Source of the DNA: Arbacia lixula | Lineage: Eukaryota; Echinodermata; Echinoidea; Arbacioida; Arbaciidae | Assembly: GCA_963669155.1 (NCBI GenBank) | Contig: OZ022595.1 | Coordinates: forward strand, 5,761,642 to 5,825,641 | Reading direction: 5' to 3' | Length of the DNA stretch: 64,000 bases | In this document: one piece after another, positions 12,958 to 63,249 of the stretch | Layout of the letters: each line of letters begins with the position of its first letter | Position numbering within the stretch: position 1 is the first letter of the stretch | Program-made: the position numbers and the translations under genes | The notes under the pieces: generated by a model | Databases searched by the model: none | Seen by the model: only the letters and a program-made list of their open reading frames with translations | What the model was told of the DNA's origin: nothing

Positions 12958-15900
12958 CTTTGAAGAAAACAATCACAAATAAATATATTACCATGGCTTG
13001 TAGGTCACAGTCCGGTGTAACACTGCATAAAAAATACTACGTCACATGAAGTTATAGTGAACGTATTGGGTCGAGACTTGGTAAGAGTGGTACAGAGTTA
13101 TTAATCTATATTGAGCTCAAATGACATATGATTTTAAGCTAAAAAATAGATCGCAGTCCTAAAAAAGTCCTAAAAGTGTGTGGAATGGTACCACACATTT
13201 GGTGTGTTGGTAACGGCGCGTTGACATGTACGTCTTGCTATTCAATTATGCTCAGCGATGCTCATCCATAAAAAACCCCTCATCAAACATATACAATTTG
13301 ATGTGCAAAATTCAAATCGGAGATACATGACCCCATGACAAATAAGCGACCAAAAATATAAAAGAACACTACTTGACATGAAAAAATGTACACAATATGA
13401 AGGGGAAACTACTTCTGTAATATGTATTTTTTTTTGTAAATGAAGAACATGCTAAAAATATCATAAACTAAGCAATTCCTAGGTTGTTTAACACAATTTT
13501 TCTACATGATAATATAGAAGTTGACATGTAGCATAAATTTATAGCTGTAATTGTTCAAATCTGCTTCGATCTAAGGTATGGTGCAGTGTTTCCAAAAATA
13601 ATGAAATATATTGATGAAAATGTCAACTTTGTTATCTACTGCAGATCAAAATTAAATTTCATATCTCATACACAGGCCACAAATTGACAAAGTACTTGGT
13701 ATGCTACAACCTAAAACACATGCATCTATGCTGTGTTAGCATCGACGTTTGACAGACTATACATTCTTCTATTGAATGCAGACATATGTGTGAGAACCAA
13801 TTAGCCACAATGGTCCACTATATGAGCGAAGCTAACAGCGACATGGACGTTAAAAATTGATGGTCAGTGGAAACAGTATATTAAGTCATGAGAGAAAATA
13901 TTTAGAGGGAGTGAATGGAAAAGGAAGGGGTGAGAATTGCAAATTAAATGAAGATGCACAATTATTTTAACACATGTTGGAAATTGACGGCATGCTAATA
14001 GGACAATACGTGACTTGTTACTTTAAGCTGTTAGAACCAACATGCTAGGCGAGATGGAAGTGCTACATATTTTCCTACCAGGAAGTTCCTTTACTTTGTT
14101 ATTTTGCCTTCACATAGTCTGTGGGAAAACGTTATTTCACCGGCTGATTTAATACGGTTTGAATCGGAAATATGCCAGGTCTGCACAATCTCTACATAAA
14201 TATCAAACAGTTGATGATTTTAAAGGAGCACTTCTCATTATACGCCATTGATTCAGATTTGCACAAGTAAACCATTCACATCCACAGAGCAGAATCTTTT
14301 TTGCACTTAAAGCGTACAACGGATGCAACATATAGCGATTTTGTAAGTATTAAACACGACAACATTCCCACCGACCAAGGCATGCAATATTGAGTTCCAA
14401 AACAAAGAATAAAAAAAAAACACTTACACCGTCGTCTGACCAAACCGCATGGGAAATAAAAGAAAAGTGTCAAAAGACATAGTTAAAAGTGCCATTTTGT
14501 GACAGCTTCATGTTGTACATACATATCACAAGGGTATAAAGCAAGGTGTTGGCTGAAAATGCAAATTGAAATGTACATTATCAAACAAAACTTAATTAAT
14601 TTAAATAAGCTCTTCACGAGGTGACCCTCGTATGTACTTATTTTTTTTCTGCTCTCAGTAGCGAGCTGTCATGATTAACACCTTCATATTAATACCATAC
14701 AGTGCATGCAATTCAAGTAAAGCAAACAAAATACTACAATTATAAATAATAACATACTGATACCATCGATATCATTTTCATTCAATTTTCCCTAAATCTC
14801 AAATCATAACAACCCCAGACTAACCCTCTTTTCTCGATAAAAAATTCAAAACAAATACTGGAACAAGAAAAAATAAGTCAATTTATTTGTATTGTTTTGA
14901 TGGAGTACACTATGGACGTAGGAGTGTATTATAGGACATTCGTCATAATTATATACGAGTCCTCTCAAGACAAATTTACTTGCCAATCGTTCCCAGTGTA
15001 CACGATGTGAGTGACATATCATAAACCACTCTGCAACAAACATGACAAAGTACCATTGCTAAAGACATTGAATTTTTACAGGATTTTTTTTTAATTGATT
15101 GGAAAGTTGTATAGGTTATCATCGTATCGAAAATGCACGACCAGTGGTGCCATTTAATCATAAGCTGTGAACTGTGATATTTCAAGCGTGCAATCTAAAG
15201 AACGTAATTAAATTTGACCTAGTTCACATAATACCTGGTGATCTGAAGCTTCCTTATGACATAGTTGCGACTGCGGGGGATAGCCAGGATGATAATGATG
15301 ATGATGGTGGTGATGATGATGATGATACTGATGACGATAGTGTAGTACAGATCTTTCCGTACTGTCCCAGGACTATTATTCGTGTGAGTATTGACGGACT
15401 TCGTTGATCCAATATCTATTTGCATAAACATAATATACAACATATAAGCAAATTACAGTCTGGCGACGTACACCTTTGTCCGTGGCAACGGAAACCCCAA
15501 ATACAAATGCGTGGGTCAAACAGAAGCATACACGTTTTTGGAATTAGATCTATGTCTACCACTTATTCATGAACATGTACTACTGGTGAACGTAGAGGAA
15601 GTATGTAGAGGAAGTACTGTATTCGTGTTAATAGACCAGTTCGTAGAAAGGTCTGGTTGGACAATCAAATGAGTTAGATATTACAAGAATTATGAATTCA
15701 AAAAATGATAAGTGTTTGGTGCAGATCATCCCCTGGAAAAAGTGAAATATCTTAGCGTGTATTTGCAGACATCCACAAGAAGAAAACAAAGTCAAAATCA
15801 AGAATCTCACCTTGCATGCCATTTCCCCGACAGGTCGTTTATGAATTAATACTCAAAACATGTTGGCTAAGGACTCTCAATGAACCTCTACTTTCGGCCA

Positions 15901-21900: not shown

Positions 21901-24900
21901 TGAAAGTTGAGCATTGTTTCACTTTCGTATTAAAGGTTTAGACAGGACGTGTAATTTTGAACAGTTAAACTCATATACGCACATGAAATTTGAACATTTC
22001 GTTTCGTTTTGTAGGTGCTGCGACACGAACAATGAAATAATCATAGGAGATGGCATAAGTGGAACGACAAACATTCATAGGTGCACTCATTGGAGCCGGT
22101 CGAATATAAGCGTAGCCGGGGTTAGGGGGGGGGGGGGGGGGTGGTGGGGGGTGATGGGTGTGTGTGTGTGTGTGTGTGTGTGTGGGGGGGGGGTGAATGC
22201 TGTTCAGGTGTGCCGACAAAATCTCCCCGCACAGTGCCTGTAGGAATTTCTTCGGCACCCTCAAAGTGATGTCCCTTGGTATGCTTTTGCAGATGAAACA
22301 TGAATAAAACATATATTGCAAGTAATTTTGTTTTTGTTGTTGATTGAATGTTGTTGGCATAATTCATGAAATGTTCCCCCCAAATCTATGACTGATTTAA
22401 AGCGCACTTCTATAATTGTATTTTTTAGAATATACTTTGGAACTCTCGAGAGATACGCTTGCAATAACATTTTCAGCAACCCCAATCTGCAAGTACACAA
22501 CTCCAGGGTTTTTTTTTCTCACCAAGCTGTTTTTAAACTTAGAACGACTTTACGCAAGACTGGTGACCCCTTCTCCTGCTAAATCATATTCTCAAGGATT
22601 TTGATTCCTATCAGGTTAAGTTGAAATCTGATCTTTGTAAATTAAAATTCTTGCTCTAAACTAGTCTCTGAATGCAAAGTTTATGAATCGTCAAATTTTA
22701 TTTATTTGTTGGATGTTAACTCCCACTGTAATAAAAAGGGAACAAATCTCATTCAACACAAGAAAGGGTCACCAGTCATTCGATATGAGTGTCAGCGCCA
22801 ATTCTTGTGAGTCTACAGACCGCACGCTTGCACATTACGCATGCGTGCTTCTATTGCGTGCTACTAATATCAGCATACCTCTATGAATATAAGTCGGGTG
22901 TCGTAATTGCAATCTGCGTATGAGCAGATTATTGCTGGTAGAAAATGACCTCAGGTTAATGGCACTACTCATAGAGTAAAGTGGAAATTCATTAGATAGT
23001 CAACCACATTTCAAATTATTATCATGCACATGTGGCAACAGCTATTCAGCGCTGAGAAGGTAGTGAAAGCACAATGAACTATGTGCGCCTGCTTCTATTG
23101 TTGTTCCGGGCACACAGTAAAATTTCTTCACATTCATCATCCAACACAGCTTCATGGAAAAATCACAGTCAGCAGTCCAGTAGTATTTATTCAGTGGATT
23201 GTCGGACCATGGTGCAATCCAGAAATTAACTTTTTAGTCCGGGAGCCCCAGAAGATTTATTCATGTGAAAAGGGCCGGAACAACTGACCCCATAGGTCGA
23301 AAGGATATACCCTGGACATCACAAAAATGTTTTGCTGGCAAGGTGTACCCGATGCTTTTCCCCCCAAATCACCACAAATGTGACGTCACTAACGGAAAGC
23401 CTTTTTTCAAAAATGGTTGGAATATATACATGGTACCATCATAACAAAGGTGTTAACACACATTTTTTTACGCCCAATCATCAAACTTGATTGGTATAGT
23501 TTGGTTGCCTAGTAAATGTGCAACATCACCATTGACTTTTTTTGGCAATAACAGCTATGTGGGTGACGTCGACGACGACGACATATCGCGACGACGTCCG
23601 CAAAATGCAACACTTTTGTTCGTTTTTTGTGCTCTTTTTCGGTTAAAACTTTATCAATTCTTGTAGTTCACAAAGCATTCCAAATATTTATTTCAAACTT
23701 ACTTTGCTGTGTTTGGCATCTCTCAAGCTTTTCAAAACATATAAGAATGGGACATTTGGTCACGCTAATGGTCATCTCCTGACCAATAATAGAGCGTAAC
23801 GTTTTGGTGGAATGCACGTAAAGTCGGACAAAGTACTACGTACGTCCTATATACGCGTATATACTGGATACGTGCTACTTTTTGGTTGAAACGTTTCAAA
23901 TCCTTGTAATCCAAGAACCATACCCCACATTTCCTTTCAAGTCAGCCTAATGTTTTTGGCATATCTTCCGCTTTTCAAAACATATATGGATGTTACATAT
24001 TGTCACACCTATGGTCATCTCCTGACCAATAATGTAACGGAGCATTTTGGAAAAATTGCGTGAAATCGGACAAAATGTTGCGTATTAACTGCATACGTGT
24101 TTATTCTGTATACGTGTTACTTTTCGGTTGAAACTGTTTAGATCCTTGTACTTCAAGAACCATACAACATATTACTTTCCGACACGTTCTAGTGATTTCG
24201 GCACACCTTCCACCTTTCAAAACATATATGGATGTTGCATATTATCACGCTTATAGTCATCTACTGACCAATAACATGATGTCACAATTTGGAAGAACGT
24301 GCCTAAAATCCGACAAAATACTGCGTACGTTCTATAAATGCGTATAATTTTGGATACGTGTTCCTCTTCGGTTGAAACTTTCTAAAATCATTGTAATCTA
24401 AGAACCGTACCACACATTACATTTCAATTTGCTCTGATGTTTTTGGCTTTTGTTCCGCTTTCCAAAACATATACGGATGTTACATATTGTCACACCTATG
24501 GTCATCTCCGGATCAATAATATCACGGAGTATTTTTGAAGAATTGAGGGAAATCGGACAAAATGTTGCGTATTAGCTGCATACGTGTATATTCTGTATAC
24601 GTGTTACTTTTCGGTTGAAACTGTTTAGATCCTTGTACTTCAAGAACCATACAACATATTACTTTTCGACATGTTCTGGTGATTTTGGCATCTCTTCCAC
24701 CTTTCAAAACATATAATGATGTTATATATTATCACGCTTATAGTCATCCACTGACCAATAACAAACTGTCACTTTTTGGAAGAACGAGCGTAAAATCCGA
24801 CAAAATACTGTGTACGTTCTATAAACAATAAACGCGTATATTTTGGATACGTGTTATTCTCTGATTGAACCTTTTTAAAATCATTGTAATCCAAGAACCG

Positions 24901-30900: not shown

Positions 30901-33900
30901 TGCGCTACATACTCTACAACTAAGAGAAACTGATAAATATGGTCTTTAAAAGTTGGTCTGTAGTGAAGAGTCACGCTGCGTTTTCATCTTGACGCGCTTA
31001 ACGCTGTTATGCACTACATGTAGCACTAGTAGCAGTACTGGGTAGCTGCTGCTAGTACTAGCCACGGAAAATTAACAAACGTGCCGGTAACCTAACGTTA
31101 GATCTAATCGTAGTCACAGATGAACTTTGGACTAACCTTATTTGGGATGAGTCTAACAACTAATCGAGATGTTAGACTAGCATAGTCACGGAAGATGTTG
31201 AACTGTTAAAGATGTTTACACCACGGTATTGCCCTGCTCCTTCGGGAAAATACTACGTCAGATTGCTGTTTTGTACATGGCGATTGTGCATATACGCGTA
31301 CGTGCATTAAGCTAGCTTGACCGAGCGAATCAATTTTGTATATGTTTACAACAAACGTCGCGCGAAACGAATTGCATGCCGGGAATGGTCGATCGAGCGT
31401 GCTCGATTTTTCTAACTTCGCGTAACTTCGCGTAACTTCGCGATTTTTTGGTGTAATGTGAACACGATTGTAAAATTTTGCGATTTTTAACTTCGCGATT
31501 TTTTGTAATGAGAATGGCCCTATTGTCTGCATTTAAACGCTTTGCAGAGGTGAAACACATAAATTTGGAAGACATTTCGAGGAGAAATGGACAAACTCAT
31601 GACTGAATTCTACGCTGTCGCAGCACTGTGTGAGACGGTGCTGCGGTGATTTGCCCACTTACGTGCATTGCGAATACGTTCATTTGGGCACTCAATGCCA
31701 CTCTGGACATTCGCAGTAAATCTGTCTTTCCTGGTATGAATACGTCGTTTAAACGATTGTTATCAAATTAAAGCGTAATGAACTTGGTAGATCTATACAT
31801 GCAAACTCTATTTCTCCACTTGACATGGTCTATGGAGAAAATCATCTATATTTTAGCTGTGTTATTTGGACACTTCTCCACGTGAAAAGTCAATGAATTT
31901 TAGTCTTGGCAGATTTTCCAATCATTGATGATCATTGTCAATTGAAGATGAAGATGGATCTCTGCAATCTGATTGGTCAATAACCATGCATCCGGTAATT
32001 ACCGGATGCATGATTTTGTCATAACCATGCATCCGGTAATTACCGGACGCATGATTTTTCCATGCATCCGGTAAATGATGTTGCCAGAGATTTTTCCCCT
32101 TTTTTATCAGATTTTTGGGGCACATTCTATAAAACAGATGATGCACAGGTTTATTTCGTGGGTCAGTAGGATTGTGTACAAGTGGTACCTCTGAATTTTG
32201 CCCGAAACCCACTCGGCTTCGCCTCGTGGGTTCAGTCAATTCAGAGGTACCTTATGAACACAATTCCTACTGACCCACTTAAACCTGTGCATCATTTGTA
32301 TACTGAATGTCATGGCTCGCCAAGTTATCCTACAGAACTTAATACCAGGACTGCCAGCGCCAAGCTGCGCAGTACAGTTGGGTCGGTGGTAAGATCTCCA
32401 TCAGGGTCATGCGCAGCTTTCAATGTACCTCACCATAAAGCGAACCGACCCATTTTAGTGAGGTGACATACAAGAGCGCTGCAGAGGTGGCATACGGTTT
32501 GCATATTAACAGTATCCTCTTGGAAGCCTCACCTGGCATTTCAATGCAAGTTGGAATCGACTCTTTCCAGACTGGATGATAGGTTGATACACCAGGTCCG
32601 CACTGCAGTCTGGAGGCTCCTGTCAAGTTGTACCCGTCTTCACAAGAGATGCTGACGATGGATCCAAACCACGTGATGTTCGGCTCTACTGTCCCATGTG
32701 ATATTTCCAAGGGCTCACAAAAACCTGATGAGGCTGTAGACAGATTGAATGGAAATGATGAGGGAAGTTCAAAGCAAATCCAATTACATCTTGTTACATA
32801 CTGCATATAACGCACATTATGTAGTATATATTTTGAGACGTCCACTTATTGGCTCTGAACAAATTCATCGTGTCATTTTTTATGAAATAAAATATATGAA
32901 ACCACCAGTCAACACTAGCAATTAAAATTTAAAATGATAAGTAATGTAGTCGTGTATCTTTTTTTTATTGATATCATTGTGCTTTATGTAATTACTATGA
33001 TTGGATCATAGAATCTCTATTTTTTCTTTTGATGTGGCAGATAAACTTGAGTCAAATATGTATCTCAAATCCATTCTGATCCTGTTATCGATGAAAAATC
33101 CACACTTTCCACAAATATTGGGAATGTCAAAATACTCACTGGTGTAAACTCGTCTCCAAAGTTGAGTAACATTTTTTGACTGATCACACTCATCACCATT
33201 AAAAGCAAGCTCATCTAAATTGACTGAAGTCGCTGATGTACATAAGCACCTCTCTCCCCTTATCGCAGCAATTGCATCTGGGTTCTCAGATTGACAGGAT
33301 GAAACGCAATCAGAGATCGACTCAGAGGTCAATTCGTCGTTGAGCCTACCGGTTTCAAATCCATAGCATCCGATATAACCCGGCTCTAGTTGGAAAATTA
33401 GAACAAGCATTGTCATTCGTTAACTTCATAATAGATTTCCTCTTCGGTGTGGTCTCGGAAGGGCATAACATTCTTACCAGATCTTGAAGTAGGGTCAACG
33501 ATTTGGATGTGGATAAAAAGCAAATACCAAGTATAGCCAGGACCCTATTACCGACCGATATCTATTAGCGATCAGTCAATGTTTAATTTCGATTCGCGAA
33601 GTAAATTGACGCACATGTCGGAGCTGCAAAGGCTGTAGAAATGTACTTACACATTTAAAATGGTGATATTTCCCAAAAATTTAAATTCGCGAAATTTTCG
33701 TGTTTTGCACCGCGCACATAGTAAATCCAATTTGGAATGATATGTGCGCATTTTGAATCTTTCCATAGGAATGGTCGGTATTGTGCGAAAGCATTGAGTC
33801 GGCTCCATTCCGATAGGCACTATCGTGAAACCGTATGTCGGATCGACTGCGAATGTGCTCAGCATGTTTATTTGAGGTACTGTTTTTTTAATTGAGTAGG

Positions 33901-36900
33901 GCAAAGCTTCACTGGTCGGTAATAGAGTACACTGCCATACATTGTAGTTATCTAGTTTATGTTAACTTTTTCTTACAGCTTGTCGACTAAATCAGTAGAA
34001 ACGTTTGATAATGTGTTTTAACTTATGCTATCCAATTGAGGAAAAGCCTAAATATCATAGAAGGTAAAGAAATACTTACTGTGGCATTGCACCCGTAGAC
34101 CATTGTGAGATTGGCATTCTTCATAGGACACAGAGCAGTTGTCAAGGAGGTAGGTCCTTTCTCCTGGAATGAACAGACATCTCATGAACATGTTATCATT
34201 GGTGATGACTGGAATTTTCAACTTTTTTTATCGAGTACAAATGTACATGCAGATTTTCATGCAAATACTGGTCAAAATGATTGCGTTTCTATAACAAATG
34301 TTGTAAATTGTAAAATGTATTTATTTGGTCAATTTAAAAGATACATTTATGGAAATTCATTTTGTTCACATGATAAAAATATCTAACATTGAACATACAA
34401 ACTCATTTTTACAGATTAATTGACAACATCATACATACACGGTACTACAACAGTGAAATCAAACATAAATATTGCAAGTCAAACCGATGGGTTTACATAA
34501 AATGACAAATAATGACAAGTTTTACATCAAACAAACTGGTGTTATATAATACATACTATAATGCAATAATTTAATATTAATGTACAATTGAATTAAATAG
34601 TTATCGTAAAGTGAAATATTGATTAGGTCCCTTTAAAATAGTGAAATGTATTGATATACCGTTATGAATATTCCAGGTGAACTCGGAATAACTAAGGTAG
34701 TAGTATTAAAATTGCACTTAATGGGAAAATTGTCATTAAGTTTACTACATTTGATACTGTGACTAGAATGGTATAGGCTACATGAACATCATTAACGTAA
34801 TTGATAGTGATATGATCTCATTATTTTACCATGAATTATACAACACTGAACTTATCAGATTCGCTAATTTGGTGACGATAAATTGGATACCCTTAATGAT
34901 TTAAAAGTGATCAGAAGGTCACAACACAAGAACAGCAGAAGGCAGCAAACGACTATTCGTTTGCCCCCCCCCCCCCCACCAACGTCCATCTTTACCCATC
35001 CTTCAATTCACCCTTTTATTTTGCACTCATGCTGGACTATTTTGTTCACCATTGTACATACGAATTGAGTACGGAACAACAGAATCTATGTACCGTTTAG
35101 TACATTCATTGAACTTATCCTTGTTCCAGATCGCATGAAAGTATAAAAATCGTTTAGAATGTGATCTTCACTGACTAGTATTTCATTAGTCTTTTTAGCG
35201 ATTCTGCCTTCACATTCCTTCCTAAGATCCCGTCTTTCTCCAATTATTTAACTGGCCCGTTTCACAATAGCTTCTAGTTACCTGAGATCTTCCTTTCTGC
35301 AGACCCCGAACCAAACAACACAGTTAAAGACTAACACCGCATTTAGGCCGGCCCGAGACCACCTCCAGAGGTGGCCCCAAATCGGGGCCGGCCTCAGGCC
35401 GGCCCGAGGCCGGCCTTTTAGCTTGGTGTAAATGGGGTATAAGACACTTTCAACACTGGATTTGTAAAACATACTCAGAATTAGTTGATCAACATGTAGT
35501 GGTCCTAGTTTACGTAAGAAATACATGCTTCTTTGAGCTTTGGAAACAATAGACTTACATTCTTCAGCTCACGGGAGTTTGCTATCTATTGTTGTCCCGA
35601 GGTATCTGTATTTCTGAACTATTTTAATGTTTTCACCATTAATCTGAATTGGGTCATGTTGTGGGGCAGTTGTTCTTAAATAAAAAATGATTTCTTTGGT
35701 TTTGAAAGGGTTCATCAGAAGAAAATTATCATCACACTAAACTGATCCACATTTGACCGATATCCAATTTCGTTTCGTGTTATCAGTCCCAGAATTACAG
35801 TATCGTCTGCGTATTTGAATATTCTGACATTATCCCCTTCAGTCCTACATCCATTAGTGTACACAATGAACAATACAGCAGACGGAACACATCCTTGTGG
35901 GGCACCAGTATTAAGTAACATGGAATCTGGCAAACAGTTTTGGAACTTTTACTCTTTGAGTCCGATTTGAAAGAAAGTCCTTTATCCACAAAATCAGGGA
36001 AGGGGGAACATCCATCTGATGTAACCTGTCCAAAAGAACTTGGGTTTGAATAGTGTTAAAGGCAGACGAAAAATCGGCGAAGAGGGCGCATGCGTAGCAA
36101 CTCAGTTTATCGGTGTGCGCGATATCATGGGTGAGCGTAAACACCGCATTGTTGACGGATTTTCTCGGCTGATACGCGAACTGAAAATTGTCAATCAGAT
36201 TGGAGATGTGCGGGCAGATGAATTGCAATACAAGCCTCTCAAAACATTTTTTAACAATGGATATGAGCGCGACTGGACGACAATCTTGCAGGTCTGATGC
36301 AAGCTTTGTTTCAGGAACGGGGACTACGATTGCCGATTTCTAGCAGTCGGGGGATCTGCATGCATCTAAAGACATTTGAAACAGCTTGGTGTAGGGAATT
36401 GCCAGCTGAGAGGCACAACACTTGAGTAGTTTCCCATTTATTCCATCGGGGCCCATTGCCTTGTTCGGTTTGACTCTTTGGAACACTTTCGCGACATTTT
36501 CTATTCACTCGGGGAGGGGTGTCGTTGAGGTCTCTCAGTTCGGAAGACTTCGTAGAGGCACGATCAGAAAAGGCCATTGTGTCAAACCGAGCGTAGAAGT
36601 TGTTAAGTTCATTTGCGGTAGCCACGGGATCATTAGATACAAAGGCTGATGTCTGCGCTGTTGCTTAGTACCCGATAAAGAGTTATTTGATCGAAAGCAG
36701 CTGTGAAGTTTTCCCTTGTAGTTTGATTTGGCGCGCGTGATTTATTTCTTCACTAGTTTCTTCACTTCTTTTATTTTGTCATATTCCTGATTGTCAAAAG
36801 CTATTTTCTGTTGATAGAATAGTGTCTTTAGTTCTTTTCTCAGCCATGGCTTATTATTTAGGAAGCATTTTACTACATTGCTTTCTATACGCAACTGTTC

Positions 36901-39900: not shown

Positions 39901-42900
39901 GAGGAAAAGGTGACACAAAAGAGGGCTAAAAACAGGAAAGCAAAGGAGAGGAAAATAGGCTACTCCCTACAGCTTCACTCAGCTAACCTATACTAGGAAA
40001 GTGAATGAGCGAGCAGCTAGCTCGCTAACTGCACGTGCATGCAGTGAATGAGAACGCACCCGGGTGTAGAATTTCGACAAGCCATAGTCTTAAATATTCA
40101 TTAGTACAGTAGCCAATAACAGAGGCCGTCTCATGAAAACTGCCTCGTGTACAAAATGAATGGCAAAAAACTAGGTCAGAAAGACTAGGTCAGAAAGACT
40201 AGGTCAGGAAATGGCCTAACCCATTCTGTCGTATGAATTTTTGATGAATTGAATTTCTGGTGCATATTTCATGGCCATTCTATTGTTTATCATCCTTCTC
40301 TCGATGCACTAACACCTATCTCGACACTTTACCCATTGTCCTGGTTGAGTGAGCACCGTTTAACAAATACTCATCCCTCTTGAGTATGAAACTTTTAAAA
40401 TCCCTTTATTTTGGTGAAAAATAAAACTCTGGATATTTTGACAAAGATGTAACATGACCTGTTATGTAAACATAACGAGTCATTTTCATGTCATGGTTGA
40501 GTAAAAACAATTTAAAAATCACACAAGAAATGCCAAAATGTATTGTTAAAACGGCATAAACAATTGCCCTTGTGACTTTTGAAAAGTGACATTTTTGCCT
40601 CTAAAATTTGCCCACTCATGTATGACTGATCGGATTAATAAGATTTTCCCACAGAAGCTAGTCAATAAAGTAGGAAACAAGCCTGCCAAATTATTTTGCC
40701 CAAAACCTCTTTGATAAAAAGTTATGGTATTTTGCTTTGGGGGGGGGGGGGGGAATTACTTTTTTTGTTGTGCTTAGAAATATGTCCACCCTATTGAACT
40801 CCCTTGGCAGGTAAAACGGGCTGAAAGATACACTAAGAAGCTCTACGTTTACGTTGCAGATTTCCCTTCTAACTTCGTAATGACGTCTCCAGTTAGTATT
40901 CATGTACAGTTTTTGTTCGTTTCGGCAAACAATCTGTCACTTCATATGAGATCAAAATCAGGAATATCGAACGCCTCACTGGGTGTAGACGGGTTCAACC
41001 AAGTTTCAGTAAAACAGATAATTCCAGAATTTCTAAACTCGCTGTCGTATCTCACTTTTCCGCGTATTTCATCAATCTTGTTTCCAATTGACCTAGCCCT
41101 GGGACTGCTCCCGCGCAGCGTGAGCGGGCTGCTCGCAGTAACAATTGACCATACGTTACTCATTGTTATTGTAGGCAACGTGTTCCAAGTATGTATGTTA
41201 TTTGAGCTCCATTTTATTTCCCCAAGTTATTTAGATTACATGTATTTGATTATTTGAATTAAAAACTAAGGCGTGTGTAGATAAAATTTGAGAGCATCCG
41301 TCTAATGTTACAATTGTATGATGATAGCATCATCACTGACAAATTCGGTATTGTAATAATGCAAATGTGACACGTATGGGGTAAGGATAATATCAAGGTA
41401 TTAAGGTAACACTCACTACATTGTGGAGCCTTAATGCAGCTCTTCCCTGCACATGCACCATTGTCATTTTTGGTATAGATAGTTGGTTTCCGATGTGGAA
41501 TATAAATCAAATAATCAGCTTTTGGTTTCAGGCAATGAGACGAACCAGCACTTCCTCGGCGATCTGAATGTATACGCTATCTTTCCTCAGCTGCGCTTCG
41601 GAAAGATAGCTACATCCAGATCGCCTCGGAAGTGATAGTTCATCCCATCACCTTCACCAACGTTGATTATTTGTTTAATATACTTTAAACGTGAGAAAAC
41701 ACTTACTACACTGTGGAGCCTTGACACAGTTCTTCCCTGCACATGCGCCATTCTCAATGAACGTCCCTTCTACTGCAGGATAACCAAGTTGTCTACAGAT
41801 CACAAGAGCGAGCTCCTCCTCGAGGCCATCTTCACAAACCCTTGTCCAGTTCCCTCCATTCCGTAAAAGCTCTACCAATCCTTCCTCCGGGGGGTCACTG
41901 TTAACGAACCGGACCTGCATGGCAGAGGCTATACCAGGCACGAAGAAACTGTAATTTACTTGCATGATTGATATGCATAATTCAATGGAATGATAATTAT
42001 CAATTCATACCATACAAATCGTCAATAATATCGATATCAGCCATTCCACCGTGACTCGCGTAACATTTGAATAAATCTAGTATTTCAAATCTTCTGCCAT
42101 ATCAGTATCAACTTCATTTCTCTTATGCACTATTCAATTCAATGGAATGATAATTATCAATTCATACCATACAAATCGTCAATAATATCGATATCAGCCA
42201 TTCCACCGTGACTCGCGTAACATTTGAATAAATCTAGTATTTCAAATCTTCTGCCATATCAGTATCAACTTCATTTCTCTTATGCACTATTCAATTCAAT
42301 GGAATGATAATTATCAATTCATACCATACAAATCGTCAATGATATCGATATCAGCCATTCCACCGTGACTCGCGTAACATTTGAATAAATCTAGTATTTC
42401 AAATCTTCTGCCATATCAGTATCAACTTCATTTCTCTTATGCACTATTCAATTCAATGGAATGATAATTATCAATTCATACCATACAAATCGTCAATGAT
42501 ATCGATATCAGCCATTCCACCGTGACTCGCGTAACATTTGAATAAATCTAGTATTTCAAATCTTCTGCCATATCAGTATCAACTTCATTTCTCTTGTGCA
42601 CTATATATAATTTAGTAAAATATATATTTTTTTCAATGAGAACATGCTTGAAATTAGGTTTCTTGACGTATCCTTATACTTGTGTAATTACCTAGTGAAA
42701 TACAGGTGATATCAACTTAACCTTCAGCAACAAAAGTTTGATGCCCTTTAGCATTATGTGCTTGATCGGCTTTTAATAATATTATCTCAATAATTCATGG
42801 TGGCCTCTAAAAATGTCATCAAAGGTAGAAATTAACAGGATAATAGACAGAATTTATGCACAAACTAAACATTACAATGAGTACGTCCACCTTCCCACAA

Positions 42901-45900
42901 GAGCATCACATTACCATCTAACAACCTTTCATGTGGGAATAATCGTTTCCTTATGTCAGAAATGTGCTAGCTATGCCATGTGATGTTATTATAAGCACTT
43001 GCAGGTAGTCATTGCAATGTTTAGTTTGTGGATAAATTCTGTCTATTATCCTGCTAATTTCTCCCTTCTATGATGTCGCAATGGGAATCTTGATAATGAT
43101 CATGATAATGTTTGCAAGGACAGCAGAATAAATAGTTTTGGATGCTTTTTTTGAGGATTCAAGGGTTTTAGTGAGAGTAGGTCTATGCATGCTCATCTAA
43201 CTTTGCTAGATCATACAATTGGGAATTAGCGGTTGATGACATAATTGTAGTGGTCCCTACCTACTCGAGAAGATCCTTATACAATGTTATGATTTTCACT
43301 AGCATTTTCTAGACTGAACATGAACTTGAAACATTTATTGTCGCTGAGGAAGCAAAGATAATAACATTTATTTACCATTTAAGCTACGGATGAATGGCTT
43401 CATGGGGCCTTATGAACTTCCAAAGGCAACCACCATTTCATGAGTATTACGGCCCCCTACAATATTGTGCACAATGCTAGTGTAAATGACATGAATTATC
43501 TACTCATTCAGCTCCATTCAGGACAGTGTCCAAAATGTGCAGAATCGTTTTTGTACTGACCGTATTTTGTAGTTGTGGTGAGATCAGGTCAACATCAGAG
43601 TCCATATCTCTATTCTTCATGGTAAATTCTGTTTAGTGTTAAAGTGTTTTTTTTTTTCCAGCCATATCAGCTATTACGTGTCCTCATGATTGCAGTATCA
43701 ACTACCCCCCCCTTTTTTTTAGAGAGAGAAAGAGGGTAGGATTAGAATTATTATTAATAATGTTTGTATGCAGTATAGTCTTCGATGACAATGGTACCAC
43801 ATTTTCCAAGTTAAAGTACATTTGGCCAGTATATAGGAACGTTGAGATTCAATACACATAATCATGATGATGGTTGCGTGTTAAACATATGGTGAAAGAC
43901 TGATATGCGCAAAATGTTGCTTTAGCAAACACCAAAGTTTCAACTTTGGAATGCTATAACTATATATCATAAAATGGAATGTAATTCATTTTATACACAC
44001 AATATAAAGCATAAACATGGCAAATTTCCATAATGTTTCAGTTCATTAGTGTGACAGATTTTTTGCAATATGAGCCAATGCATAATTGAGGATAATTTAA
44101 AATCTTGGAAATTCTGTTTAAAAATCACACTTATGCCCTCAAATTTTTGAAAAATTATTCCAAAGCGGAATGAATTTTCTATCATCTTGTAGACAATGTA
44201 ATTACCTTTCATATGATACCTTTATGTATAGCATCTACTGCTGTTAGAAGTGGGTAGAGTACAGTATACTAGTTACGTTTACTTACTGTACATTCCTGAA
44301 ATGGGAAACTTTCCCCCTGCTTTACCCCTCCTCCTATCACTCGCCCTTCTCCCCTCCCTTGCTTCCTCATCTACCTTTTCTCTCACTCCCCTTCGAACCC
44401 CTCTCTCTGGCTTAGTTCGTATTCCGCCCATTGATTTAATTGATTTAAGCATAAAACTATTGGGATATGAATATGTTATACATGTCATATGAGTAGAAGG
44501 GGGGGGGGGGGTAATTAAACCCCTTTTTTCCTCAGAGAAAGGAGGGTAGGAGTTGCATTTTCATTAATAATGTCTGTATGAAGTAGTCTTCGATGACAAT
44601 GGTACCACTTTTTCCAAGTTTGAGTATTTTTGGGGAGTGTGTTGGGACGTTTAGATCCGATACACATGTCCACGGTTGTTGCGTGTTAAACATATGGCGG
44701 AAGACCGATATGCGCAAAATGCTGCTTTAGCAAACAACGAAGGTTCAACTTTGGAGTACTATAACTTTATATCAGAAAATGGAATGTAATTCATTTTTAC
44801 ACACAATATGAAACATAAACATAAGTAAATTGTTAAAACGTTTCAGTCCATTAGTCAGAAAGTTTTTTGAAATATGAACCAATACGTATTTGAAGAAAAT
44901 TTCAAATCTTGGAAATTTTGTTTAAAAATGATATTTTCGCCCCAACTACCATAAAGCCATATGAGTTTGGTATCATCTTGTAGAGAATTTAATCAGCTTT
45001 AAAATAATACCTTATATGGTGAAAACAAATATTTTTTTCGATTTTTGAATGGCGGCCATTTTTTAAAATGGCCGCCGTTGCCTCCCTGAGCAAAATTCAA
45101 GAAGGCTCAATATCCAAATTTGCTTAGATAATTTAATTCTACATGTGTGCCAAATTTGGTGCATTTAGACAAAAGTGAACAATTATTCAGCTATGCCGCT
45201 GGACTAAAATACCTAGACAATGAAAACTTTTGGACAAATCCGTACCATGCCTATACCTGTGCTAGGTTTTATGGCTATTCCGAGCCCTTGCGTCACTCAC
45301 GTTATACAGGCCATTTATTCACCCCGAACGAGATATCTGGTGAGAATCTGTGTGCAATTATTTTCAGAAATTAAGTTTGGTAACTCACATGCTTGTTCAT
45401 AACAAGATATCGACAAATTAAATCCCTGGCCAGTCCTAGAGGTTGACGAGGTGAACGATATGGTGAGGCAATTTCCTTGCGACAGGTACGGCGGTGAATC
45501 TATCTTTTTACCAGTGTACCAACCATTATTCAGCTTACTGAGGGGATCCGATATCAATAAAATGTCACGAGGTTCCTCAATATTGAAATAATTGAAGCTG
45601 ACGAGAATTCGTCGATTTAGAAGAGCTGAAATGTTCCATTCGATATTTGCACCACTTGGATACTTCTCCGGGAATTCAGGCGATGTGATTGTTACTTCTC
45701 TGTCACAATCCAGAGTCCGGCTGTCTGCAGTGGTGAAAAAGTGTATGACGATAGATATTTGTTTTATTTCTTCTATTGCCTGAATGATTTATAATTCATC
45801 TTAGAAACCACTGATATAACCGAAATATTATCATCACCATTCACCAGCGGCGAACCTTGTCAAAATTGTCGAAGATGTAGCATAATGGTACTCATGTATG

Positions 45901-48900: not shown

Positions 48901-51082
48901 ATTCAAAAGTAATTATGGATATAATCATGAAATGTACCATTATGATGTCTACACAAATTTGATAAAAGTATGAAGCTTGATTTACTTGTTTTCGTTGATG
49001 TAATAATTCATATTCCATTGCTTCTTATAGAAGCAAAATAGTTTGCTGCACCATGTACTGTTATAACTAGTTATTGATATACAATAATGCACAGGTGCAC
49101 CACATGTTTACATGACACTTGAGGGATATGGTTTGTAGCTTGTGGCATGAGGTGAAAATATCCACTGAAAAGGTAGACATTTTTTAATGTTTTCATTTAC
49201 AATGTAAATTCATTCTTTGCTGTTACATGTGTCATGTGTACATTAATATCCTTAGTATTCATGGTAGTGTGGTGAATGGTGATGAATCCACTTTCTAAAT
49301 ATTAAACATGTGTTTTGATTATTACATGTGTAATCCAGACACGATAGGTACCAATCGTTTGGCTGCAAGTTGTATTTTCCCCACTGTAACAAATTATATT
49401 TGTTATTGTGTACTTAAATGGGGCAGTTATTCTGTTTGCCCAGTATTTTGGAAGAAATCACAAACTAGTGTCGTGCTTAGCCACTAATTCAAAACTTAAT
49501 GGTTTTGATATTTGATATATCACACAAATTCCAATTGCATGAAGCCAGAATTTAGAATATCAATGATATTTTGTTGAGATTTATTCAATGTTATGTCTGT
49601 AATCAACCAAATGAATACACTTTTAACATGGACATTTCTATGCACTTCATAGTAAACTGCAATACATGTAGAGGTTTGCTTGAAAGTTAATACTGTAAAT
49701 GCAATGTTTGATATCGTATATTCGTTTGGTGTATTTTCCTTGCCAGGATGATTGTAAATCTAGTTACATGATTATATAAAGTATGTAAATATGTAAATAT
49801 GTGGTTTTGAGTTCTTAGTTTGCATGTGTTTGTTGGGAGTGTGTATGTATGTGGGTCTGCAATTGCACACTGTGTTTTGTATGTGACTGTGAGTAATCAC
49901 TGAGTATGAGTCTAGGTATGGGGATGTAATATGTTTTTTTTTCTGGATTGTGTGTATATGACTTGTGCGTGTTAGCCGCTTTGTTATCATCTAAAGAACG
50001 ATTCTTCCCAGTTCATATCTCATAACCATAGTGTTTGCTGAACGGCGGCGCGCACACAGATAACATAGCTCTGGTGCAATGCACTCTCGGACTGAGCGTC
50101 GGTCGCGTATGACGCGCTGCATCATTGCGCACACCCAGTTTCCTACGCGCGCAAGCAATGCGATCCTCCCAGCACGGTTCGTGGCAACGCAAATATGCAC
50201 GTACGTGTACATGTAACACTTCGTGAAAACGATGTGCACACAAGAACACGGTCTTGGCGTTTTCACGAACCGTGCTCCTAGACTATAAACTCGATACACC
50301 CCTGTAGCAAGAATGTGTGCAGGAGTTATGAAATAATATTTACATTATAAGAAACTTCAAATCATATACGTCCACATCAAAGTAAAAATTGGGCCAAAAG
50401 ATGAAGAAAACGCATTCAAATCGCAATTTGAAAACAGTTGTTAACTTCGAACGCGATCATCTCGGAAACTCTTTTTCGTGCTAAACGCGCACGCGTAACG
50501 GTTCGTGAAAACAGCGACGTGTTTTTACTTTTTGTATTTTTTTAAAATATGTATACAAATGCATTATTTACATGCACATAATATATCATTTATTATATGA
50601 TGTTATATTAAATCATCATGAAACATTTTCATGAGCATGCTAATATTTCCAAGACGGTAAAACTACATATTACATCCTGAATGAATGCATCCAATCATTG
50701 TAGCAAGCAATTCGGTATGGCAGATTTATGTTAATCAGTTAACAATGCTACAATGAACAAACCCATGTTTATATTCCTGTCCGTATTAACGGTGAACATA
50801 TAGCTTGAACACATTATCTTATGAGGTTTGTATCCGTGAAATTAGTGCTAGGCATGTTCAAACAAGCATGATTTCACATTAGCTGCGATATAAAACCTCA
50901 GTCCGGGAGCACATACCTGAGGCCTAATAAAGCTACTCGCAGCACATGCTACGCGGACCTCTTTCGAGTTACTCCTAAATGATATGTGAATACTCACATT
51001 GTTGTGCCTGTTCTGCGCTTGTAAAGATGATTACCCCCATACAAGCTAGGACGAGCAGGGCATGGCTTCGAACCAGAGGCAT
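11640..51082 (-). CDS. Multi-exon CUB-SRCR-WSC-Sushi single-pass membrane receptor
   Basis: Eight exons on the minus strand join as 51082-50998, 45724-45389, 41928-41707, 34163-34080, 33385-33140, 32724-32533, 15361-15235 and 12957-11640. The total is 2610 bases in one frame, giving 869 residues and a TAA stop. Each exon is bounded by AG and GT sites, and every junction keeps the frame: six phase-1 junctions and then one phase-2. Predicted order: signal peptide (1-23), CUB (about 35-138), SRCR (146-242), WSC (about 246-324), Sushi (327-386), transmembrane helix (396-416), cytoplasmic tail (417-869). The extracellular part resembles scavenger or lectin-like receptors of marine deuterostomes. 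The ligand is unknown; pathogen or glycan binding is only an inference from the domain families. No known orthologue is claimed. Further exons could be missing from the long introns, but none is needed for a continuous product. Confidence 0.85.
12958..15234 (-). other. Last intron of the receptor gene
   Basis: About 2.3 kb, AT-rich, joining the membrane and tail exons. No transposon protein, tandem repeat or extra exon was recognised. Confidence 0.6.
15235..15361 (-). CDS. Exon 7: transmembrane helix encoded by an ATC microsatellite
   Basis: This 127-base exon is phase 1 at the acceptor (CCTGGGACAG) and phase 2 at the donor (CCAG then GTATTA, a weaker donor). It encodes R-K-D-L-Y-Y, then about 21 hydrophobic residues (396-416) of which 14 are Ile, and then P-R-S-R-N-Y-V-I-R-K. 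The basic cluster after the helix fits the cytoplasmic side. On the plus strand the helix is a degenerate GAT/GGT repeat, so it could be dismissed as simple sequence. The lengths, both phases and the position between ectodomain and tail all fit. No other membrane-spanning exon was found between 12957 and 32533. Confidence 0.75.
15362..18519 (-). other. Intron sequence between Sushi and membrane exons, gene-proximal part
   Basis: AT-rich sequence without a supported exon. A short ATTACC microsatellite lies near 18460-18480, at the 3' edge of the LINE that follows. Confidence 0.5.
18520..20975 (-). pseudogene. Decayed non-LTR retrotransposon with endonuclease and reverse transcriptase
   Basis: Broken minus-strand frames run in the order expected for a LINE. 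An endonuclease start lies near 20970-20720 (KATAVLLEKTDSSRLMIPGY). Further on are GPDNIPPEFLLHCG (about 19800), AGFRRGRSIIDPIVKL (about 19520), ALVFSPAQYAAP (about 19200) and a C-terminal zinc-knuckle-like end, LHRLRTGVGRFNSNMHRWGL with CMCGPTEHTAHHILHECP (about 18700-18800). Motif pieces sit in different frames, so it is inactive. It is probably 5' truncated. The family resembles Jockey/CR1-clade elements of marine invertebrates. Confidence 0.85.
21389..21468. repeat. 40-bp tandem duplication
   Basis: Two head-to-tail copies of a 40-base unit beginning ACTACACCTCCA and ending AATAAGCTCTC, with two differences. Confidence 0.85.
22120..22195. repeat. G-run and GT microsatellite
   Basis: A G run, a GGT-rich patch, a pure GT array of about 24 bases and a second G run. 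Apparent frames on either strand here are simple-sequence artefacts. Confidence 0.95.
23600..25760. repeat. Left arm: tandem array of about 244-bp units
   Basis: A conserved GGTTGAAAC-like anchor recurs near 23641, 23886, 24126, 24370, 24613, 24863, 25106, 25350 and 25592, giving nine units of 240-250 bp. Each unit also has TTCAAAACATATA, a GGTCATCTCCTGACC-like segment and a CGGACAAAAT block. Units two apart (for example 24.06-24.24 and 24.54-24.72 kb) are more alike than neighbours, suggesting amplification as dimers of about 487 bp. Confidence 0.85.
26131..26385 (-). CDS. Unrecognised open frame inside the foldback centre
   Basis: An 84-codon minus-strand frame encodes a hydrophobic, glycine-rich peptide including GGTIITGRYHGG and LGLIIYFGTFGGKV. 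The local base composition is less AT-rich than its surroundings and the peptide looks protein-like. No family can be named with confidence. It could be a fragment of a host gene captured between the arms or a remnant of an element protein. It may also be chance. Confidence 0.25.
   Translation of the reverse strand: MYVQILTPKQTWPLHAFVVDVAGKHMSYCVHTMQATELKIGGTIITGRYHGGTILPSPLGLIIYFGTFGGKVMAMFTICHVSIH
28140..29640. repeat. Right arm: inverted array of about 244-bp units
   Basis: Six units in reverse orientation to the left arm, with TTTCAACC anchors near 28330, 28595, 28838, 29080, 29322 and 29568. The array is three units shorter than the left arm, so the arms are unequal in length. Confidence 0.85.
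30444..31520. mobile_element. TIR element built on CGCGAAGTTA repeats
   Basis: The left end has CATTCTCATTGCA followed by AAATCGCGAAGTTAG. The right end, read in reverse, has CATTCTCATTACAAAAAATC and then CGAAGTTA. Extra copies of ATCGCGAAGTTA in both orientations cluster at 30480-30660 and 31400-31500. About 1.07 kb with no transposase, so likely a non-autonomous DNA transposon. The target duplication was not resolved. Confidence 0.65.
31985..32075. repeat. Perfect 28-bp palindrome with a near copy
   Basis: The palindrome at 31985-32012 has the half-site CATGCATCCGGTAA. A second copy at 32026-32053 differs by one base, and a third half-site follows near 32058. Together they can form cruciforms or hairpins. 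Confidence 0.9.
32134..32300. repeat. Long hairpin, MITE-like
   Basis: A stem of about 60 bases pairs CAGATGATGCACAGGTTTA, GTGGGTCAGTAGGATTGTG and GGTACCTCTGAATT with their complements on the right side. A loop of about 40 bases separates the arms. It lies about 230 bases beyond the Sushi exon's 3' end, in the intron. Confidence 0.85.
32533..32724 (-). CDS. Exon 6: Sushi (CCP) domain
   Basis: This 192-base phase 1-1 exon has acceptor CTCATCAG and donor GTGAGG. It encodes residues about 325-389. It has the four-cysteine complement control repeat pattern: FCEPLEISHG, then SISCEDGYNL, RLQCGPG and PVWKESIPTC, including the conserved Gly-Tyr and the Trp before the last Cys. Such modules mediate protein binding in complement regulators and adhesion molecules. 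Splicing straight to the membrane exon gives a very short stalk (I-E-M-P-V-R-K-D-L) before the helix, so this is likely the membrane-proximal ectodomain module. Confidence 0.88.
33140..33385 (-). CDS. Exon 5: WSC domain
   Basis: This 246-base phase 1-1 exon has acceptor TTTTCCAACTAG and donor GTGAGT. It encodes residues 243-325. The WSC pattern is visible: GYIGCYGF, then SDCVSSC, an Ile-Arg-Gly-Glu-Arg-Cys-Leu-Cys stretch, a later Asp-Glu-Cys, and the closing WRRVYT. WSC domains are cysteine-rich carbohydrate-binding modules known from yeast stress sensors, polycystins and kremen. The usual C-x-G-N near the end is not obvious, so this is a divergent member. It sits between the SRCR and Sushi exons. 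Confidence 0.82.
33545..33925. mobile_element. MITE with 12-bp terminal repeats
   Basis: Perfect terminal inverted repeats, CTATTACCGACC at the left and its complement at the right, bound about 380 bases in the intron between SRCR exon 4 and the WSC exon. The interior is CpG-containing and has no coding capacity. Confidence 0.65.
34080..34163 (-). CDS. Exon 4: SRCR domain, second part
   Basis: This short 84-base phase 1-1 exon has acceptor TTCATTCCAG and donor GTAAGT. It encodes residues 215-243, including RTYLLDNCSVSYEEC and NGLRVQCH. This fits the second half of an SRCR domain, where a hydrophobic LD pair is followed by spaced cysteines. With exon 3 it gives a domain of about 97 residues and eight cysteines, a normal SRCR length. 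Only one of the three frames is open through the exon and it matches the phases on both sides. Confidence 0.78.
34164..35269 (-). other. Intron stretch upstream of exon 4
   Basis: AT-rich intron sequence with a run of about 15 C near 34963-34977. No exon or element was supported. Confidence 0.5.
35336..35430. mobile_element. Short GC-rich palindromic insert in the LINE
   Basis: About 95 bases with GGCCGGCC repeated four times interrupt the LINE frame between S-V-E-S-V-L and V-F-N-C-V-V-W-F-G. The outer ends (CCGCATTTA and the complement of CCCCATTTA) form imperfect terminal repeats. This suggests a very small MITE or other insertion. Confidence 0.5.
37580..40222. mobile_element. Element Y: nested inside element X with perfect 8-bp target duplication
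   Basis: Both ends read GGGTTAGGCCATTTCCTGAC in inverted orientation, and the inverted repeats run for about 140 bases, including tandem GACCTAGTCTTTCT units. The flanks ATTCTGTC (37572-37579 and 40223-40230) are identical. The second X copy at 54 kb has the same site uninterrupted, which defines this insertion directly. A 9-bp reading of the duplication is equally possible. Inside are a duplicated CpG-rich segment (37712-37806) and an inner hairpin near 38800-38935, but no recognisable transposase. Confidence 0.85.
37712..37806. repeat. CpG-rich direct repeat inside element Y
   Basis: Two tandem copies of about 50 bases, each with CGAACATTCGCGCCGGCGCG and GGCGGCCAGGAGGCGCA. They stand out from the AT-rich surroundings. 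Confidence 0.85.
41417..41518 (-). CDS. Possible optional exon duplicating the SRCR cysteine cluster
   Basis: This 102-base open stretch is phase 1-1 with no stop. Its donor is a strong GTGAGT, but its acceptor (ACCAAAAG) has a weak pyrimidine tract. The 3' half encodes NGACAGKSCIKAPQC, almost the same as the end of exon 3 about 290 bases upstream; the 5' half is unrelated. If included between exons 3 and 4 it would add 34 residues and keep the frame. It is either an alternatively spliced module made by partial exon duplication or a decaying copy. The conserved donor and reading frame argue slightly for use; the poor acceptor argues against it. Confidence 0.4.
41707..41928 (-). CDS. Exon 3: SRCR domain, first part
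   Basis: This 222-base exon is phase 1-1, with acceptor GGTATAG and donor GTAAGT. It encodes residues about 141-215 and opens with the SRCR start VRFVNS, followed by EEGLVELL, W-T-R-V-C-E-D and the family hallmark VICRQLGYP. It ends with the cysteine cluster GACAGKNCVKAPQC. SRCR domains bind polyanions, microbial surfaces or other proteins. The domain finishes in the exon at 34163-34080, about 7.5 kb away across an intron full of transposons. A 157-bp tandem array begins only about 50 bases upstream of the acceptor. Confidence 0.88.
41981..42608. repeat. Four-copy 157-bp tandem repeat
   Basis: Copies begin at 41981, 42138, 42295 and 42452, each with TTCAATGGAATGATAATTAT. Only a few positions differ among them (for example AATAATATC or AATGATATC), indicating recent expansion. 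The array lies in the intron about 50 bases upstream of the SRCR exon 3 acceptor. Confidence 0.97.
42817..43075. mobile_element. MITE with about 64-bp inverted repeats
   Basis: The left arm CATCAAAGGTAGAAATTAAC and onward is mirrored by the right arm, which ends TCCCTTCTATGATG. The strongly conserved inner block AGGATAATAGACAGAATTTA occurs in both arms. There is no coding capacity. Confidence 0.85.
43703..44227. repeat. Duplicated segment, copy 1
   Basis: About 520 bases beginning with a C/T run and AGAGGGTAGGATT, containing CTTCGATGACAATGGTACCA and GCGTGTTAAACATATGG. A second direct copy is at 44509-45020. Confidence 0.8.
44509..45020. repeat. Duplicated segment, copy 2
   Basis: Direct second copy of the 43703-44227 segment, about 800 bases downstream, with moderate divergence. 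Between the copies is unrelated T/C-rich sequence. Confidence 0.8.
45389..45724 (-). CDS. Exon 2: CUB domain
   Basis: This 336-base exon is phase 1 on both sides. Its acceptor is CTGCAG and its donor GTGAGT. It encodes residues about 29-141. The CUB signature is clear: C-D-R-E-V-T-I-T-S-P-E-F-P-E-K-YP at the start, then a WNI strand, a middle region with LLISDPLS, and the closing GNCLTISFTSS and GFNLSISCYE strands. CUB domains are extracellular beta-sandwiches that bind proteins or glycans. The second cysteine of the usual first disulphide is missing: the segment reads A-N-I-E-W where C-x-W is expected. The first Cys may therefore be free or pair elsewhere. The domain follows directly after the signal peptide. 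Confidence 0.88.
46009..46220. repeat. Cluster of GTTTTCACGAACCG motifs, left
   Basis: GTTTTCACGAACCG occurs within 46014-46027 and at 46205-46218, with a reverse GGTTCGTGA near 46174. A 25-base stretch at 46009-46033 is perfectly inverted at 50494-50518. Confidence 0.75.
46755..47323. mobile_element. MITE with long inverted repeats
   Basis: The left end AAAGGGTTACTAAATGAG and right end GCAACCCTTAG are inverted. The match continues through AAGTTCCCAC, TAAAATTATCCACTAAA and GTCTCATTTTGACGA for about 130 bases. Total about 570 bases with no coding capacity. Confidence 0.85.
48513..48551. repeat. GGT microsatellite and G run
   Basis: A GGT array running into about 13 G. Simple sequence. Confidence 0.95.
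50040..50519. repeat. CpG-rich patch with GTTTTCACGAACCG inverted repeats
   Basis: GTTTTCACGAACCG at 50259-50272 and its complement within 50499-50513 bound a MITE-like unit of about 265 bases. More half-copies lie near 50174 and 50220. The adjoining 50040-50180 is rich in CpG and CGCG. Open frames in this patch are probably due to composition. Confidence 0.65.
50998..51082 (-). CDS. Exon 1: signal peptide
   Basis: The first coding exon has 28 codons plus one base. It starts at an ATG with A at position -3. A short basic start (Met-Pro-Leu-Val-Arg) is followed by a hydrophobic stretch, LLVLACMGVIIF, and then Thr-Ser-Ala before Glu-Gln, a good signal peptidase site after residue 23. The exon ends at a strong GTGAGT donor in phase 1, matching the phase of the CUB exon acceptor. 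A TTTCACAG about 20 bases upstream of the ATG could be an acceptor joining an untranslated exon. No promoter element was identified. It is the only exon with these properties found upstream of the CUB exon. Confidence 0.8.
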
Positions 51083-62568: not shown

Positions 62569-62773
62569 ATGGTGCTACTACTATTTCTACGTCTCCTACT
62601 ACTTTTATCACTACTACTACTACCACTATACACTACTCCTACTACTTCTACTAGTACTATTACTACTCCCCCTACTACTTATTCTACTACTACTCCTCCT
62701 TCTCCTCCTACCACTACTACCTTTACTACTACTTCTATTACTACTACTACTACTACCACTACTACTACTACTT

Positions 62774-62816
<43 letters not shown>

Positions 62817-62821
62817 TACTT

Positions 62822-62857
<36 letters not shown>

Positions 62858-62871
62858 TACTACTTCTACTT

Positions 62872-62920
<49 letters not shown>

Positions 62921-62945
62921 TACTATTACTACTACCATGACTACT
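62569..62945. repeat. Long CTA/CTT microsatellite
   Basis: About 375 bases of imperfect CTA with CTT and CTC variants. It grew from the same spot in the dispersed repeat where the other copies have a few CTA-like triplets. Long frames through it (poly-Thr, Leu, Ser or Val) are artefacts. Confidence 0.97.
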
Positions 62946-63249
62946 ACATCTACTAACACTACCCCTAGGAAATGCTAAATGCAATTTTACAAAAGTGATT
63001 TTATTATCTTTAAGAAATTGTGCAAGATATGTAAAATAAAGTTTTAATCATAGGTGAAGACACAAGAAATAAATTAAAACAAAATGGATATTCAGCAGAA
63101 ATATGCAAATTAATGTCAGTCACTTGATACTAACATTACTACCTTATGTACTAATAGTTCTATATATGGCTACAGCAATAACAACTCCCACGTACAAAAA
63201 ATGGCGTTACTACCATACTTCGACTATTGCTAACACTACGACTATGGTA

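Follow-up and report, generated by a model that had tools for sequence, protein, structure and literature searches.

CNDP1 has a signal peptide with a leucine repeat encoded by a trinucleotide repeat. Transmembrane receptors with N-terminal leucine repeats have also been described (PMC1557989), and a known parallel to the gene presented here is membrane exon 5 of human MICA, which contains a GCT microsatellite with reported alleles of 4, 5, 6 and 9 repeats (PMC4753467). The MICA allele A5.1 is described as a frameshift (PMC3930404), which means that a gene of this kind can retain even alleles that break the frame. Moreover, the transmembrane-first model proposed in yeast holds that membrane helices can arise readily from thymine-rich non-genic DNA (PMC7005711), and isoleucine has been classed as intolerant to repeats, with isoleucine repeats consistently low across the compared proteomes (PMC5125637); thus, a receptor anchor made of isoleucine runs would be unusual.

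The receptor gene described here lies in a window of 64,000 nt (the whole stretch of DNA analysed; OZ022595.1, called C20 in coordinates, 5761642–5825641), and the genome searched comprises 607 Mb in 590 contigs. As in MICA, a triplet repeat sits inside a membrane-helix exon, here a predicted one, and is read in a hydrophobic frame, the MICA unit encoding non-polar alanine in an immune surface protein, and length changes by whole codons, here between gene copies, the exon lengths of which are 1 mod 3 in 6/6 cases. However, MICA is MHC class I-related, whereas the window gene is without an MHC class I-like ectodomain, since Pfam recognised no MHC domain in the four ectodomain ORFs scanned, only CUB, SRCR, Sushi and weak WSC matches. 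Furthermore, alanine is reported from part of the MICA helix, whereas isoleucine makes up two thirds of the helix here, and the MICA variants are described as proven alleles, whereas the present comparison is among gene copies and not alleles. The segments of CNDP1 and of the leucine-repeat receptors are likewise hydrophobic targeting segments derived from a trinucleotide repeat, but theirs are leucine-based signal peptides, whereas the segment considered here would be a permanent isoleucine helix. In the transmembrane-first model as outlined, a whole small ORF arises, whereas here, if at all, one exon would have arisen within an existing receptor family. An isoleucine version that spans the whole helix and is tied to a swapped 3' gene end was not found in the titles and abstract openings that searches of open-licence papers returned, and one study of Plasmodium amino acid repeats reportedly mentions isoleucine repeats. 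In principle, MICA already provides a membrane exon with a triplet repeat, and the whole-helix isoleucine version together with the swapped 3' end would be a new variant. The cluster, with its copies in different states of preservation, provides a natural experiment on the limits within which a repeat-coded helix can drift in length and purity, and a sharp exchange of the 3' end would allow receptors to change anchor and tail while keeping their outside part.

The minus-strand gene model has eight exons with a spliced length of 2619 nt and encodes 872 residues (Table 1), with exon phases of 0, 1, 1, 1, 1, 1, 1 and 2 and GT/AG at the intron borders. The order along the protein is signal peptide, CUB, SRCR, WSC-like, sushi, membrane helix and a tyrosine-rich tail of 438 residues; the assignment of exon 4 to SRCR is a probable one, made from its position and Cys pattern, and the WSC score in exon 5 remains sub-threshold (16.1 bits, with a curated cut-off of 27.8). 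The host would be an animal, to judge from domains and introns. Multi-domain receptors of invertebrates show a similar set of SRCR, CUB and sushi domains, with phase-1 introns between the domains, and ectodomain exons with phase-1 introns are common to the window gene and the CUB-SRCR-WSC-sushi family of this genome. The tail has zero Pfam matches at E 0.1, and its NPYY, NPLY and other tyrosine motifs presumably resemble adaptor-binding sites. Such a receptor would expose CUB-SRCR-WSC-sushi on the outside and the tail on the inside, the anchor feeding into the segment with the tyrosine motifs.

Table 1. Features of the receptor gene, in positions of the window
Feature	Positions	Strand	Evidence and remarks
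Exon 1, signal peptide MPLVRSHALLVLACMGVIIFTSA...	50998..51082	-	ORF, donor GTGAGT; similar in copies D and E
Exon 2, CUB	45389..45724	-	Pfam CUB 3.4e-13; phase 1-1; equal length in C, D, E
Exon 3, SRCR first part	41707..41928	-	Pfam SRCR 5.5e-10; phase 1-1
Exon 4, probable SRCR second part	34080..34163	-	Phase 1-1; equal length in B (with stop), C, D, E
Exon 5, WSC-like	33140..33385	-	Pfam WSC E 0.013; phase 1-1
Exon 6, sushi	32533..32733	-	Pfam Sushi 2.2e-6
Exon 7, ATC-repeat membrane helix and basic stop-transfer	15235..15361	-	Phase 1 in, 2 out; may start at 15415
Degenerate GAT/ATC array	15288..15338		TRF: 17 units, 79% matches, score 60
Possible 5' extension of exon 7	15362..15415	-	In-phase upstream acceptor; open in 6/6 copies
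Exon 8, cytoplasmic tail, 438 residues	11640..12957	-	Open ORF; NPYY, NPLY and other tyrosine motifs

On the minus strand, the ATC frame of exon 7 (127 nt) is free of stops; the exon has GGGACAG just before and GTATTA just after it and joins the sushi exon (phase 1) to the tail exon (phase 2). Its product, RKDLYYTIVISIIIIITTIIIIIILAIPRSRNYVIRKLQIT, contains the helix TIVISIIIIITTIIIIIILAI, in which Ile accounts for 14/21 residues, 13 of them encoded by ATC, and which is followed by the basic cluster PRSRNYVIRK. With a Kyte-Doolittle value of 3.48, the helix is by far the strongest hydrophobic segment of the model and, apart from the signal peptide (2.0), the only strong one (next segment, 1.15). 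An earlier note on this DNA had described the exon as a membrane helix with 14 Ile in 21 residues, followed by a basic stop-transfer cluster and fitting its neighbours in phase, and this description stands in each of these respects. The same holds for its view that the helix codons derive from a repeat, since ATC is used for 13/14 Ile codons in the helix and for 16/40 in the rest of the gene (binomial P 6e-5) and the 17-unit array is detected by TRF. The term microsatellite, which was also applied there, fits only loosely: the array is present, but it is a worn tract in which the longest uninterrupted ATC run is 5 units in the window copy. When 284 kb of the cluster were scanned on both strands and in all frames for tracts with at least nine ATC codons per 20, a threshold chosen after seeing the exon 7 tract, 6/6 tracts were copies of exon 7. 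On this sequence evidence, exon 7 is quite likely to be the single anchor of a type I receptor, formed from a worn ATC array within a derived 3' gene end; it would be spliced into the transcript and inserted into the membrane, with slippage as the presumed cause of its changes, and the helix would most likely act as a plain hydrophobic anchor with a basic stop-transfer.

The 5' border of exon 7 may lie at either of two acceptors (127 or 181 nt), since a second one lies in phase 54 to 57 nt upstream across the copies (15415 in the window), leaving the phase unchanged and the whole lengths at 1 mod 3 in 6/6 copies. In copy A, which is that of the window, the upstream acceptor is preceded by pyrimidines at 11/20 positions and the acceptor at 15361 by 8/20, a weak tract. 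The helix is the same under either acceptor.

Copies of exon 7 occur at six places, namely A, B (5849 kb), D (5901 kb), D2 (5899 kb), E (5987 kb) and F (6046 kb), and a genome search returned the window locus and these five copies, all remaining matches falling inside the repeat itself. D and D2 are a recent tandem duplicate, in which 5898.5–5899.8 kb and 5900.4–5901.8 kb of C20 share 1378 bp at 99.6%, with an identical exon. The duplicated exon runs from phase 1 to phase 2, so both cannot be spliced together in frame, and the near identity of D and D2 reduces the independent exon copies to five. Exon lengths in A, B, D, D2, E and F are 127, 139, 133, 133, 118 and 118 nt, all 1 mod 3, and helix lengths, counted from the first residue past the aromatic pair (or Asn-Tyr) through the Ile that precedes PR, are 21, 25, 23, 23, 21 and 18 residues, with longest pure ATC runs of 5, 14, 4, 4, 3 and 4 units, respectively. 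Thus, the length steps of whole residues expected in the earlier note are seen in six of six copies, as differences between gene copies. Replication slippage would lengthen or shorten the helix by single Ile residues, as expected of a coding tract that is a worn ATC array, in which most point mutations of ATC also stay hydrophobic.

Such slippage could also make helix length vary among living individuals, which we regard as rather doubtful. The copies do differ by whole codons, and the described human MICA alleles, which segregate with 4 to 9 GCT units, indicate that five units can be polymorphic (PMC4753467). However, the pure runs of A, D and E contain only 5, 4 and 3 units, the run of 14 units lies in the damaged copy B, and the copies were all read from one haplotype.

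The copies are unequally preserved. The ectodomain exons are open in A, D and E and also in copy C, whereas copy B is damaged: its frame is broken in exon 3, exon 4 and the tail contain stops, and no match to the CUB, WSC or sushi exon was found there. Copy F is damaged as well, as it meets a TGA at the start of exon 7, after its open 5' extension; its helix includes an Arg, and its tail is interrupted by stops. The long tail is absent at D, and in a protein search of the genome at E up to 10 it was matched outside A only by the damaged copies B and F. In copy E (C20:5981.2–5982.1 kb), a short DNA remnant of the long tail encodes, in one reading, about 20 residues from the acceptor and then a stop. 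With the long tail missing from D and E and with damage in B and F, the window copy is the sole complete one, and the branch with the ATC helix may be partly dying.

This state of the tails, lost or broken in the other copies with an ATC helix, would also be expected if exon 7 were unused, either in a decaying gene or in one with another anchor, and the open ATC frame, which a stop-free triplet repeat has by its nature, would then be a by-product of the repeat. Such disuse seems quite improbable, because the non-repeat codons after the tract, the donor and the phase are preserved in the six copies and the window tail is open over 438 codons. Intron 6 also offers no other candidate anchor: between 12958 and 32532, no other exon from phase 1 to phase 2 with a hydropathy of at least 2.0 was found under the splice patterns tried at lengths of 70–259 nt, in agreement with the earlier description of exon 7 as the sole membrane-spanning exon. 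Moreover, hydrophobic frames from phase 1 to phase 2 between splice-like sites formed 71 clusters in the 568,000 strand bases of the same 284 kb, 12 of them with a net charge of +3 or more following the helix. Of these 12, seven corresponded to the six copies of exon 7, one of which fell in two clusters, and five did not.

The copies with open ectodomains (A, D and E) have helices of 21 to 23 residues, whereas both extreme lengths and the longest array belong to the damaged B and F, and this spread, drawn from few genes, is suggestive of a constraint on length. Although substitutions break up their ATC arrays, D and E retain hydrophobic helices of 23 and 21 residues, respectively. Gaps were multiples of three in 6/6 cases in the exon (181-nt version) and in 2/15 in the flanking introns in pairwise alignments of A, D and E, but these gaps do not represent independent events and triplet slippage alone yields multiples of three. 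In exons 2–6, no stops occur in 358 codons of A, C, D and E, and point estimates of ectodomain dN/dS range from 0.55 to 0.66 in the six pairs of these copies; in the 17 codons past the tract dN/dS ranges from 0.14 to 3.21, with very few changes. The tract is also robust to substitution. Single substitutions lead to a stop or a charged residue in 0/189 cases in a pure ATC tract, 6/189 in the A tract and 26/189 in the ordinary helix. In simulation, 12 random substitutions left 98% of A tracts and 35% of ordinary helices stop-free with a hydropathy of at least 1.6. Thus, the hydrophobicity of D and E could persist for some time without selection, and its retention is weak evidence for selection on the helix. 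The same robustness of ATC codons to substitution might explain how a repeat of this kind could serve as a lasting anchor.

The gene belongs to a family with two kinds of 3' end. The sushi exon matches at least 16 genes, which include A, C, D and E, eight at C20:3.92–4.05 Mb, two at 6.09 and 6.11 Mb on C20, one on C4 and one on C5 (43% identity); this count is a lower bound, as 147/578 first candidates were scored, and the addition of B and F brings it to 18. Ten of these 18 genes have an ordinary, unrelated helix and tail, and five have the ATC helix, which occurs at six places (search at E up to 0.1). In a relative at 3.92 Mb, a stalk exon comes after the sushi exon, then the ordinary helix EDQCATYLVKALITSTAVLGFLLLITVTSWIASRCR, entered in phase 1 and left in phase 0, and then a shorter tail; a stalk exon like this one is carried by the C4 gene. 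The ordinary helix was found at 10 places and the ordinary tail at 12, which are the same ten genes plus copy C and the C5 relative, the latter at E 1.5e-8, and two of the ten ordinary tails contain one TAA each. Neither the ordinary helix nor the ordinary tail has a match in the window. Homology between the long and the ordinary tails was considered and rejected, the best E in an exhaustive two-sequence comparison being 0.044.

The change between the two ends is sharp. Between A, D and E and the 3.92-Mb relative, local scores of the upstream intron are 244 to 279 and the sushi exon is 91.5 to 96.5% identical, whereas downstream of the sushi exon the scores fall to 15 to 17, against 197 to 535 among A, D and E themselves; in the comparison with this relative, the one with an ordinary helix that was read, homology is lost no more than about ten bases from the sushi donor. 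Copy C shows the reverse, with a downstream score of 184 and an upstream score of 26 against the 3.92-Mb relative, and the 250 nt upstream of its sushi exon are unaligned, with scores of 23 to 30. Thus, insertions can also end an alignment beside the exon, as copy C is unaligned upstream although it is ordinary-tailed. In a search with 3 kb of the ordinary 3' end, the window and the cluster gave no match except copy C.

As the distant C5 relative has an ordinary tail, the 3' end with the ATC helix is most simply taken as derived, and it would have taken the place of the ordinary helix and tail, the sushi donor marking the junction. The direction of this swap, read from one outgroup tail, is a provisional one. 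No membrane exon was recognised in the C5 gene (scanned in two stretches about 300 bases apart) or in the C4 gene (scanned to 3 kb), so the polarity is drawn from the C5 tail; the same scan recovers the ordinary helix in a relative that carries it. The derived 3' gene end behind the ATC helix is new relative to the earlier note.

How the helix arose is a further question, for which slippage in an existing helix exon has to be weighed against a birth from a non-coding ATC microsatellite that was exonised as the new 3' end formed. Such a birth is possible but rather unlikely. It would accord with the restriction of the module, as no homologue of the helix exon was found beyond the six copies (E up to 0.1) and the long tail occurs nowhere beyond A, B and F (E up to 10), save the DNA remnant in E, and also with the ordinary helix and tail showing no convincing similarity to the ATC end and with the ordinary tail of the outgroup. 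However, a non-coding counterpart of the exon was not found in the genome, and the 438-residue tail, in which tyrosine motifs recur, resembles a signalling tail of long standing and so points instead to the capture of a whole helix-plus-tail module from a lost or unrecognised gene. The full sequence of events, in which a non-coding ATC microsatellite would have become the anchor through a 3'-end swap at a splice donor and would continue to change in length by slippage within narrow bounds, is distinctly unlikely.

Copy C combines an open ectodomain with the ordinary tail, the stretch due to hold the helix exon being missing (C20:5868396–5868408), and may be secreted or dead. The window also holds several repeats and elements apart from the ATC tract. 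A 2.65-kb element (37580–40222) is 97% identical to an inverted copy at C20:5973551–5976184, its ends match in inverse orientation, and it was probably mobile recently. In intron 6, a 242-bp unit forms two oppositely oriented arrays (23708–25304 and 28436–29497), a 157-bp unit is repeated four times (99% matches) directly upstream of the SRCR exon (41979–42604), and at 62575–62955 a CTA repeat with about 128 units (79% matches) far exceeds the ATC tract in length.
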